A stretch of 64,000 bases of DNA from Planctomycetaceae bacterium (lineage in GTDB: Bacteria > Planctomycetota > Planctomycetia > Planctomycetales > Planctomycetaceae). Position 1 is the stretch's first letter. Each line of letters begins with the position of its first letter. Shown here one piece after another: positions 16,527-64,000 of the stretch. Made by a program: the position numbers and the translations under genes. The stretch is from NCBI GenBank assembly GCA_021732415.1, contig JAKFVC010000034.1, forward strand, positions 1 through 64,000, read 5' to 3'. The notes beneath the pieces are model-generated. The model did not search any database and was not told the DNA's origin. It saw only the letters and a program-made list of their open reading frames with translations.

Positions 16527-17468
16527 ATGTTCTCCGCACCAAGGATTTCCGATCGAGATATCATCGCGGCGCGAGGCGAGAAGCAGCCCGTCGATCCGTG
16601 GCAGCCCTACGCCTACCTGGTCGAGCCGGAACACACGGCCGCAGGGCTTGTCGAGGATGTGGCGACACTTTTTTTAACGAATCGTGAATGTCCATTTCAT
16701 TGTCTGATGTGCGATTTATGGAAAAACACGCTGGACACTCGCGTGCCGATCGGAGCCATCCCCGCGCAACTTGATTTCGCCTTGCAGCGATTGCCCGCCG
16801 CACAACACATCAAGCTCTATAATAGCGCGAACTTCTTCGATCCCCAGTCAATTCCGCGTGAGGACTGGCCAGCGATCGCCGAACGAGTACGGTCATTCAA
16901 AACGGTGATCGTCGAAAATCATCCCCGGCTGTGTACCGACGACTGCCGCATCTTTCGAGATCTGATTGGAACGCAACTCGAAGTCGCCTTGGGACTGGAG
17001 ACAATTCATCCTGAAGTCTTACCACGCTTGAACAAACAAATGACGACGGATGATTTTGAATCCGCGGTCGCGCGATTGAGAGGTTGGAACATCGCAACGC
17101 GGGCGTTCATTTTGTTGCGGCCGCCGTACCTCACCGAAGAAGAAGGGATCGAGTGGGCGTGTCGCTCGATCGACTTCGCGTTCGACAGCGGAGTGAATTG
17201 TGCCAGTGTGATTCCTGTGCGCGACGGCAATGGCATTATGGAACAACTGGCTGCCGCGGGGCTCTATTCCCCCCCGAGTCTGCGTGCATTAGAAGAAGTG
17301 CTGGAATATGGACTGAAACGGAATCGAGGCCGAGTTTTTGTCGACCTGTGGGATGCAGAACGATTTGCGACTTGTCCCGAGTGCGGTCCGCAACGTCGAG
17401 CACGATTGAGGCGGATGAATCTCTCGCAGGTATCGGAGCCTCAACTGACTTGTCAGAATTGCGGTTAG
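16527..17468 (+). CDS. Radical SAM enzyme, ELP3/RaSEA-like (TIGR01210-like)
   Basis: This 313-residue radical SAM protein has the 4Fe-4S motif CPFHCLMC at C55, C59 and C62. The middle follows the TIGR01210 pattern: IKLYNSANFFDPQSIP, VENHPRLC, LEVALGLETIHPEVLPRLNK and LLRPPYLTEEEGIEWA. The C-terminus ends in a zinc-ribbon-like set, CPEC (283-286) and CQNC (309-312). TIGR01210 relatives include the archaeosine radical SAM enzyme RaSEA, but the substrate here is unknown. No obvious Shine-Dalgarno precedes the ATG, and an inverted repeat ends just upstream. The next gene, 219 bases downstream, encodes a halogenase-like flavoprotein on the same strand. That pairing suggests a small-molecule or modification pathway, which is an inference. 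Confidence 0.85.
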   Translation: MFSAPRISDRDIIAARGEKQPVDPWQPYAYLVEPEHTAAGLVEDVATLFLTNRECPFHCLMCDLWKNTLDTRVPIGAIPAQLDFALQRLPAAQHIKLYNSANFFDPQSIPREDWPAIAERVRSFKTVIVENHPRLCTDDCRIFRDLIGTQLEVALGLETIHPEVLPRLNKQMTTDDFESAVARLRGWNIATRAFILLRPPYLTEEEGIEWACRSIDFAFDSGVNCASVIPVRDGNGIMEQLAAAGLYSPPSLRALEEVLEYGLKRNRGRVFVDLWDAERFATCPECGPQRRARLRRMNLSQVSEPQLTCQNCG

Positions 17469-17505
17469 ACCCTGTGACGGGATTGGAGATGGTCATTGCG
17501 ACAAC

Positions 17506-17633
17506 TGGGAGGGCGAGGCTCCCGCCGAGCCTGAGCGAGCTTTAGCTCGGCGTCCGCCGGAGGCTGAAACGATGCCTCCGGCGGACGCCGACCTAGGGTC
17601 GTCTTTTGGCTCGGCAGGAGCCTCGCCCTCCCA
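17506..17633. repeat. Inverted repeat, family C
   Basis: An approximately 128-base element with inverted ends GGGAGGGCGAGGCTCC and GGAGCCTCGCCCTCCC. Inner arms are GTCCGCCGGAGGC and GCCTCCGGCGGAC. Long stems could form. It separates the radical SAM and halogenase-like genes. Close copies occur at 55611-55751 and 63889-64000. Confidence 0.9.
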
Positions 17634-17687
17634 TTTCCTCGGTCCGGCATATTTAAGTTGAAACGCAATAGCTCAACGAGTTTCTGA

Positions 17688-19202
17688 ATGACTTACGATG
17701 TCGCCATAATCGGTGCCGGGTTTGGTGGCAGCTTGATGGCACTGATCCTGCAGCGGCTGGGGTTAAATCCGGTCTTGATCGATCGGGCCAGTCATCCACG
17801 GTTTGCGATTGGGGAATCGGCCACGCCGATTGGGGATCTGATTTGGGCTCGGCTGACCGAACAATATGACCTGCCGCGCTTGCGGCCACTGGCGGAATAC
17901 GGTTCATGGCAACGGTCGTATCCGCAATTGCCCTGTGGACTGAAACGGGGTTTCAGCTATTTCCTGCACCGTCCCGGACAACGATACGTCCCTTCGGCAC
18001 GACATCAGGACGAAATGCTGGTGGCCGCTAGCCACGGTGTGGATGATGCCGACACTCACTGGTACCGAGCCGACTACGATGCCTTCATTGCTAACGAAGC
18101 TCAGCGCGAAGGGGTCGCCTATTTCGACCACACGCAGCTCACGGAACTGCAGGGAGGGAATGTTTGGAAACTTACCGGAACGCGGCTCGGTCAGCCCATT
18201 TCGTTTGCGGCCAGATTCGTGATTGATGCCTCGGGCGAGAGAGGCTTCTTAGCCCGGCATCTGGGGCTCACAAATCACGTCGCTCAGATGCAGACCAATT
18301 CGCGACCCTTGTTTGCTCACTTTCGCGATGTGCCGGCGTGGGGCATGCTGCAGGGCTTTGATGCTGCCCATCCTGATGCCCATCCGTTTGCCGACCACCC
18401 GTATCCGTGTGATGACGCTGTGTTGCATCATCAATTCGACGGTGGCTGGATGTGGGTGATTCCTTTCAACAACGGAATCACCAGCGTTGGGTTCGCGCTG
18501 GATCAGCGAATGTTTCCTCTAGACGAAACGGTCTCGCCGGCTGAAGAATGGCGGTCGCTGCTGCGGCGCTATCCGTCGATCGGCGATCATTTGCGGGACG
18601 CCCGGATCTGTGGTCCCGGCGAACATCTGATTCGGGGAGGTCGGATGCAACGCTGGTTGAGTCCCGCTGCTGGACACAATTGGGCTTTGCTTCCGACGGC
18701 CGCTACGTTTCTGGATCCGTTGCACAGCACTGGCAATGCCCACACGCTAAGCGGAATAGAACGCTTGGCTGGAGTATTTGCCGGCCACGTGGGCAGTTGG
18801 GATGCTCCTCAGTTTCACGCCGAGTTACAGGCTTATGACGCCACTCTGCAGGCCGAATCGCAGTTGCTGGACCGTGTGATTCACGGCTGCTTTCTGGCCT
18901 TGGGGGACATGGAGTTATTCGGTGCCATGTCGGCGTTTTATTTCGTCGCGGCCATTTGGGCGGAACATCGCCGGCGGAGTGGACTCTGGCAGCCGCAGGA
19001 CGCATTTTTGGGGGCGAATGACCCGGAATGGGTAGGGATTGTCGAAACTTCTTACTCGGAACTTGTCGAACTGACCCTCTCGGGACCTTTCGACAGGGAT
19101 ACGAAACAGCATTTTATCGCGCGGGTGCGACAGCGGATTGCCCCCTACAATCTGGCCGGGCTGTGTGATCCGGGGAGACGCAATCTGTATCCGTATCCGT
19201 AG
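17688..19202 (+). CDS. Flavin-dependent halogenase-like oxidoreductase
   Basis: This 504-residue FAD protein begins with a Rossmann motif (GAGFGG at 9-14) and has GESATP at 42-47, both typical of the PHBH/halogenase superfamily. WMWVIP at 254-259 matches the WxWxIP signature of flavin-dependent halogenases. Lys86, in GLKRG, sits where those enzymes carry their catalytic lysine. A second FAD segment reads FVIDASG near 177-183. The substrate, and whether halogenation occurs at all, is unknown; a geranylgeranyl-reductase-like role is the alternative. Halogenases need a flavin reductase, and none is seen nearby. The gene follows a radical SAM enzyme on the same strand across a family C repeat, so co-transcription is plausible but unproven. 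The ribosome-binding site is weak. Confidence 0.78.
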   Translation: MTYDVAIIGAGFGGSLMALILQRLGLNPVLIDRASHPRFAIGESATPIGDLIWARLTEQYDLPRLRPLAEYGSWQRSYPQLPCGLKRGFSYFLHRPGQRYVPSARHQDEMLVAASHGVDDADTHWYRADYDAFIANEAQREGVAYFDHTQLTELQGGNVWKLTGTRLGQPISFAARFVIDASGERGFLARHLGLTNHVAQMQTNSRPLFAHFRDVPAWGMLQGFDAAHPDAHPFADHPYPCDDAVLHHQFDGGWMWVIPFNNGITSVGFALDQRMFPLDETVSPAEEWRSLLRRYPSIGDHLRDARICGPGEHLIRGGRMQRWLSPAAGHNWALLPTAATFLDPLHSTGNAHTLSGIERLAGVFAGHVGSWDAPQFHAELQAYDATLQAESQLLDRVIHGCFLALGDMELFGAMSAFYFVAAIWAEHRRRSGLWQPQDAFLGANDPEWVGIVETSYSELVELTLSGPFDRDTKQHFIARVRQRIAPYNLAGLCDPGRRNLYPYP

Positions 19203-55610: not shown

Positions 55611-55751
55611 TGGAAGGGCGAGGGACCCAGAGGGTACCCCGCCGAGCCTAAAGCGAGCATAATCTCGGAGTCCGCCGGAGGCATCGAATGGGGCCTCCGG
55701 CGGACGCCGACCTGCGGTCGCCTTAGGCTCGGCGGGAGCCTCGCCCTCCCA
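55611..55751. repeat. Inverted repeat, family C
   Basis: Ends GGAAGGGCGAGGGACCC and GGAGCCTCGCCCTCCC, with inner arms GTCCGCCGGAGGC and GCCTCCGGCGGAC. About 140 bases. It lies upstream of the third DUF1501 gene and is closely related to 17506-17633 and 63889-64000. Confidence 0.88.
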
Positions 55752-55857
55752 CTTAATGGTTCTGCTACGACGAAAGTTGCATGTTGTCCATCGTGAGGTG
55801 GCAAGTTATGATTGAACCGATCCAAAGCGCTGGAGTTCCCCAATACCGAGGTCCGCG

Positions 55858-63888: not shown

Positions 63889-64000
63889 TGGGAGGGCGAG
63901 GCTCCCGCCGAGCCTAAAGCGAGCTTTAGCTCGGAGTCCGCCGGAGGCTGAAGGTATGCCTCCGGCGGACGCCGACCTGCGGTCGCTTTAGGCTCGGCGG
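63889..64000. repeat. Inverted repeat, family C, cut by the window edge
   Basis: Starts GGGAGGGCGAGGCTCC, contains GTCCGCCGGAGGC and GCCTCCGGCGGAC, and ends in GGCTCGGCGG at the last base. It is the third family C copy and its right end is probably outside the window. It lies upstream of the sulfatase gene. Confidence 0.88.

Follow-up and report, generated by a model that had tools for sequence, protein, structure and literature searches.

The locus under study raises the question of whether a gene encoding a radical SAM enzyme and the following gene encoding a flavin-dependent-halogenase-like protein serve one pathway and, if so, what kind of reaction sequence they carry out. The two genes had been picked out in a sequence-only reading of the window, that is, the whole analyzed stretch of 64,000 nucleotides from a Planctomycetaceae bacterium. 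The positions given there proved right for the two ORFs, for every motif named, and for the repeat between the genes. The ORFs can be regarded as genes because they are conserved across relatives. The flanking genes are ordinary for a planctomycete and encode DUF1501, Dabb domain, PQQ propeller, BON, and EF-hand proteins. The following features were considered:

16527..17468, + strand: RaSEA-like radical SAM enzyme, 313 aa (ORF list, TIGR01210, fold model, 46-member alignment)
16689..16712, + strand: CPFHCLMC, the CxxxCxxC [4Fe-4S]/SAM motif, C55/C59/C62
17373..17462, + strand: C-terminal zinc-ribbon-like CxxC...CxxC, C283/C286/C309/C312, putatively metal-binding
17503..17636, no strand assigned: 134-bp hairpin of the dispersed "family C" repeat, in the gap between the genes
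17688..19202, + strand: flavin-dependent-halogenase-like flavoprotein of the PltM/CtcP type, 504 aa
17712..17729, + strand: GAGFGG (residues 9-14), FAD-binding GxGxxG; G9, G11, and G14 invariant
17943..17945, + strand: Lys86, at the catalytic-Lys position of halogenases by alignment; 59/59 homologues
18447..18464, + strand: WMWVIP (W254-P259), at the WxWxIP position; Pro in 9/59 homologues
18723..18734, + strand: HSTG (346-349), at the position of the halide/flavin loop; halide role presumed from tryptophan halogenases

Radical SAM protein

The CxxxCxxC motif together with a predicted partial TIM-barrel fold places the first ORF in the radical SAM superfamily. The motif cysteines C55, C59, and C62 were each found in 104/104 homologues, and in the C-terminal ribbon C283 and C286 are conserved in 99/104 homologues and C309 in 95 of 96. 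An alignment of 46 homologues contained 45 invariant residues. The search of the AlphaFold model (pLDDT 95.2) in the Foldseek program gave Elp3, HydE, and RimO as the best matches with modest significance (E ~1e-6), nearly all matches being radical SAM enzymes. No usable match was obtained in a sequence search of the PDB, and the score against the Pfam Radical_SAM model (23.8) was under the gathering score of 29.5.

As for the family, the protein had been described as matching a RaSEA-like pattern. RaSEA is the nearest named family (TIGR01210, E 3e-29), but the kinship is distant, since the 102 bits obtained are half of the curated cutoff of 212. All 46 homologues match the RaSEA family, and the ones given individual scores are under the cutoff, which was passed by three archaeal controls and by none of the six related genomes. 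The protein also matches TIGR01212. Due to this distant kinship with RaSEA, the lyase analogy may not transfer to the protein studied here.

Flavoprotein

The second ORF passes the Pfam Trp_halogenase model (PF04820; 53.1 versus a gathering score of 21 bits). Its nearest PDB sequences are those of CtcP (E 2e-48) and PltM (E 1e-44); in a profile search of the PDB, PltM and CtcP were again the best (1e-74), and QhpG (7ctq) also appeared. The predicted model (pLDDT 94.7) matches the PltM/CtcP fold with TM 0.82-0.86 over 504 residues. The flavoprotein thus shares with these phenolic/polyketide halogenases the FAD fold, an invariant catalytic-type Lys, and the C-terminal helical region, which is included in the structural match; however, it is only ~25% identical to them, the Pro of WxWxIP is mostly Arg in its family, and no polyketide synthase was seen in its context. 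The maturases QhpG, GoxB, and LodB belong to the same flavoprotein superfamily and give weak profile matches, as do geranylgeranyl-reductase models, but the flavoprotein is far under the cutoffs of the three maturases, and no quinohemoprotein or oxidase partner was seen nearby.

An alignment of 43 homologues contained 34 invariant residues. Lys86, which had been considered well placed, was borne out as an invariant residue aligned with the catalytic Lys87 in the CGIKLGF segment of PltM. The K87A mutant of PltM is inactive (PMC6424973), and in CtcP Lys98 occupies the catalytic-Lys position (PMC12400496). In the HSTG loop of the flavoprotein, S347 and G349 are found in 59/59 homologues and T348 in 50/59. 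We take S347 and G349 to mark the loop that bears the halide site of tryptophan halogenases. The WMWVIP sequence, previously read as a halogenase signature, is indeed present in the window protein, but it is not the motif of the family: residue 259 is Arg in 44/59 homologues, Pro in 9/59, and another residue in 6/59, and the commonest form of the motif is WMWQLRF. The Pro forms are scattered over the tree. The catalytic Glu of tryptophan halogenases (PrnA E346) is absent from the flavoprotein, which has His346 there, as in 53/59 homologues. PltM is likewise without the PrnA-type Glu in the profile alignment, so the missing Glu rules out the tryptophan class only. Since the family as a whole departs from WxWxIP, halogenation is no more than plausible, with odds that are about even; the main alternative is another flavin-dependent oxidation.

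Hairpin repeat at the gene junction

The repeat said to separate the two genes is real. It consists of near-perfect nested inverted repeats with outer arms at 17503-17531 and 17608-17636, and its predicted fold (MFE -121.8 kcal/mol, z -14.5) is far better than that of shuffled sequence. Related intergenic copies were found in the window at ~55638-55754 and 63889-64000, and further copies are located elsewhere in the genome (L181, L183). A consensus scan indicated a terminator-like short stem inside the repeat (17589-17601), which is weak evidence of termination. The gap between the radical SAM and flavoprotein genes is 219 bp here (17469-17687), which is among the longer ones, most linked relatives having 11-100 bp. 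Since the hairpin also has copies at other sites of the window and genome, the most natural reading is that it was inserted into a junction that used to be tight.

In the close relative G072 (C247; L002:4488-5795), an alpha/beta-hydrolase-like ORF with apparent membrane segments is located between the radical SAM and flavoprotein genes, which indicates that the junction tolerates insertions.

Co-occurrence of the genes and a third member of the set

The distribution of the genes was analyzed in 101 genomes of the window's family and in 246 phylum-wide genomes. Among the 101 genomes, the radical SAM gene was found in 56 and the flavoprotein gene in 60; both were present in 54, the radical SAM gene alone in 2, the flavoprotein gene alone in 6, and neither in 39 (p 4e-19 in the Fisher test, which, here and below, treats related genomes as independent). 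A control gene from the window (Dabb) showed only a weak association (p 0.03). In the phylum-wide set, the radical SAM matches and the flavoprotein matches with E<1e-100 fall in the same 10 genomes; three additional flavoprotein matches were much weaker. The sequence-only reading had held that a shared pathway would lose support if homologues of the two genes were rarely adjacent. Adjacency turned out to be frequent, the two genes being no more than 5 kb apart in 33/54 genomes, usually with a gap of 11-100 bp, and presence and absence are tied even where the genes are unlinked. In addition, a search with the radical SAM protein yielded 80 public loci, which were examined by a tblastn scan. The flavoprotein was detected nearby in 27 of them, nearly always directly downstream (immediately downstream of the radical SAM gene in 21/80); the loci with a nearby flavoprotein belong to Planctomycetota, Rhodothermota, and Acidobacteriota.

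As a whole unit, the proposed pair proved incomplete. An AsnB-like ligase, overlooked by the earlier reading, co-occurs with the radical SAM gene just as tightly (54/56). This third gene encodes a 443-aa asparagine-synthetase-like protein with an Asn_synthase domain and is present in 57 of the 101 family genomes; it occurs together with the radical SAM gene in 54, the radical SAM gene stands alone in 2, the ligase alone in 3, and neither is found in 42 (p 2.5e-22). All three genes were detected together in 52/101 genomes. In the window genome, the ligase gene is not on the window contig; it is located on another one (G000:C285, ~3.2-4.5 kb, 73% identity). The distance between the ligase and radical SAM genes is 5 kb or less in 22/54 genomes, and in 48 of 75-80 public loci the ligase gene, which is the commonest upstream gene there, directly precedes the radical SAM gene. 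In the public locus L080 (Aporhodopirellula aestuarii ICT_H3.1, a culturable planctomycete), the three genes stand side by side.

The ligase is strongly conserved, with 59-76% identity to the reference across phyla. It retains the SGGxDS ATP-pyrophosphatase loop and DGDGGDE, and no N-terminal glutaminase Cys was found within the first 12 aligned residues in 95/97 homologues. With SGGxDS kept and the N-terminal Cys missing, the protein should act ATP-dependently without a glutaminase of its own. It shares the SGGxDS ATP-pyrophosphatase core and a degenerate class-II amidotransferase N-terminus with AsnB, peptide-amidating enzymes, and the nitrile synthetase PesC. It differs from the AsnB-type ligases in lacking the glutaminase Cys, in scoring under the AsnB cutoffs (40 bits against TIGR01536, cutoff 267), and in having no adjacent conserved precursor peptide; small-ORF clustering revealed no conserved small precursor ORF (RiPP) near the genes beyond close relatives. 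AsnB-like enzymes are also able to form amides and nitriles on peptides (PMC13060819, preprint); the substrate of the ligase may accordingly be either a peptide or a small acid.

Seventeen genomes retain the complete three-gene set although the genes are dispersed. In the genus g29, one genome (G028) has the three genes on separate contigs, and in the closed genome G070 all three are missing. Such dispersal and co-loss are hard to explain by linkage or shared ancestry alone and soften the objection that kinship of the genomes inflates the statistics. Because planctomycetes keep or lose the genes together even when these are scattered, the ligase, the radical SAM enzyme, and the flavoprotein very probably belong to one pathway. 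This pathway is apparently undescribed: the parts belong to known superfamilies, and no described pathway matching the three-enzyme combination was found in the literature searched, which also fits the earlier statement that no described pathway uses the original pair.

CRTAC1-like proteins and the loci of Bacteroidetes

In Bacteroidetes, the ligase and radical SAM genes are preceded by a gene for a periplasmic binding protein and two CRTAC1-like genes, one encoding a TPR/FG-GAP/UnbV_ASPIC protein of ~1187 aa and the other a protein of 555 aa. The flavoprotein was detected in 0/25 Bacteroidetes genomes with the ligase and radical SAM genes, and it is therefore a tailoring addition rather than part of the core, so that halogenation cannot be what the core does. 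Of the 56 family genomes that contain the radical SAM gene, 54 also encode a homologue of the 1187-aa CRTAC1-like protein; the other two are assemblies with completeness of 79% and 64%. The homologue also occurs in 15 genomes in which the radical SAM gene was not detected, which makes the dependence one-way. The homologue in the window genome (1285 aa, L182:7180-11037, G000 C139) contains TPR, FG-GAP, UnbV_ASPIC, and a long conserved C-terminal region.

CRTAC1-like homologues from system-positive and system-negative genomes were compared in a residue scan, and no lost modification site was revealed. At Q942 of the C-terminal region (L059 numbering), Gln is found in 89% of system-positive versus 25% of system-negative homologues and in all Bacteroidetes homologues; this difference could be due to chance among several hundred columns. 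No function for CRTAC1-like (FG-GAP/UnbV_ASPIC) proteins was found in the literature searched.

In one locus (L019:10678-14116), the ligase and radical SAM genes are followed by genes encoding a CRTAC1-like protein, an HZS_alpha-domain protein, and a propeller/MauG-like cytochrome protein. A CRTAC1-like gene is also next in the Bacteroidetes ligase/radical SAM loci L030, L062, L070, and L077, and members of the L019 protein clusters are encoded in these four loci as well. Previously, in a 2025 study, hydrazine-synthase-like clusters were found to flank CRTAC1 genes (PMC12758564); the arrangement in L019 resembles these clusters, and some Bacteroidetes loci join CRTAC1-like, HZS-alpha-domain, and MauG-like genes to the ligase and radical SAM genes. 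The text of that study contains no mention of radical SAM, asparagine synthetase, or halogenase.

Proposed pathway

Homology, motif conservation, neighbourhood, and co-occurrence were observed; the chemistry of each step, the sequence of steps, and the product in the scheme given here are inferences. In the full reading, a ligase, then a radical SAM lyase/oxidase, and then a flavin halogenase/oxygenase would act in one undescribed pathway; we assign it a probability of roughly 45%. The ligase would adenylate a carboxylate and join it to an amine, giving an amide-type conjugate. The RaSEA-like enzyme would then generate a 5'-deoxyadenosyl radical and oxidise or cleave this conjugate. The order of these two steps is tentative and is suggested by analogy with archaeal RaSEA, which acts after ArcS attaches lysine to preQ0 and forms complexes with ArcS (PMC11298593). 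The radical SAM protein studied here is likewise paired with a group-transfer/ligase enzyme, but it is bacterial, and its partner is an AsnB-like ATP-pyrophosphatase, whereas ArcS is an ArcTGT homologue. A third step would follow in Planctomycetota and a few additional phyla: with FADH2 and O2, the flavoprotein would act on an electron-rich ring of the product, the likeliest reaction being halogenation with HOX guided past Lys86, and the alternative oxygenation. The pathway may yield a small molecule or a cofactor connected with the secreted CRTAC1-like (FG-GAP/UnbV_ASPIC) proteins.

Strong conservation of the ligase and radical SAM pair extends over Planctomycetota, Bacteroidota, and several more phyla. 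Ordinary secondary metabolism seldom shows this, and such wide conservation suggests a product with a basic role. A broader version of the scheme would see here a widespread cofactor or signal pathway in which the ligase conjugates, the radical SAM enzyme cleaves or rearranges, the product serves secreted CRTAC1-like FG-GAP proteins, in certain lineages beside hydrazine-synthase-like redox complexes, and planctomycetes add halogenation or oxidation; this broader proposal is rather unlikely. The three-gene set offers a concrete route towards the function of CRTAC1-like proteins, of which these bacteria have many. The flavoprotein represents a family of halogenase-like proteins whose signature motif is altered and whose activity is open to direct in vitro testing.

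Alternative explanations

The pathway could be the same and the flavoprotein a monooxygenase or oxidase rather than a halogenase, with hydroxylation or desaturation of whatever the ligase and radical SAM enzyme produce. The degenerate WxWxIP (WMWQLRF in its commonest form), the weak matches to QhpG, GoxB, LodB, and geranylgeranyl-reductase models, and the appearance of QhpG in the PDB profile search are consistent with such an enzyme, whereas invariant Lys86, aligned with the PltM K87 needed for halogenation (PMC6424973), and the fact that halogenases are by far the nearest solved structures argue against it; overall, this possibility is a serious one, somewhat short of even odds. It is unlikely that the enzymes mature the CRTAC1-like protein itself (~1200 aa, TPR/FG-GAP/UnbV_ASPIC) by side-chain modification or cofactor installation. 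Two such genes do stand directly upstream of the ligase and radical SAM genes in Bacteroidetes, the homologue accompanies the radical SAM gene in nearly all family genomes, and GoxB, LodB, and QhpG are protein maturases. However, the 15 genomes with the CRTAC1-like protein and no detected radical SAM gene do not fit this role, the protein is predicted to be secreted while the enzymes are without an evident signal, and the residue scan gave the modest Q942 difference and no lost site. With only this one weak candidate, the modified-protein model is treated as a rival and not as the main reading.

The radical SAM protein could also point to a system modifying tRNA or another RNA, given its matches to TIGR01210 and TIGR01212 (RaSEA and MnmL kinship), its zinc-ribbon-like C-terminus, and the presence among the top Foldseek matches of the tRNA- or ribosome-acting enzymes Elp3, RimO, and MiaB. 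The patchy distribution and the co-loss in sister species speak against this, as do the neighbours: instead of RNA genes, there are genes for a periplasmic binding protein and for FG-GAP proteins that are secreted. To our knowledge, a phenolic-halogenase-type flavoprotein has no RNA precedent, and the RNA explanation seems decidedly improbable. As for a chance neighbourhood of genes with unrelated functions, it could be suggested by the repeat in the 219-bp gap and by the unlinked state of the genes in many genomes. Presence and absence are nevertheless near-perfectly matched across the family and phylum, and adjacency with gaps of 11-100 bp recurs, also in Rhodothermota and Acidobacteriota. 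The co-occurrence data contradict a chance pairing, which is thus extremely improbable.

A minor observation concerns one of the public loci, L021 (CAMAXD010000001.1), labelled Candidatus Kuenenia stuttgartiensis. Its flavoprotein and the neighbouring genes are nearly identical to those of the Planctomycetales MAG L025, and it looks as if the label is wrong or the bin is mixed.
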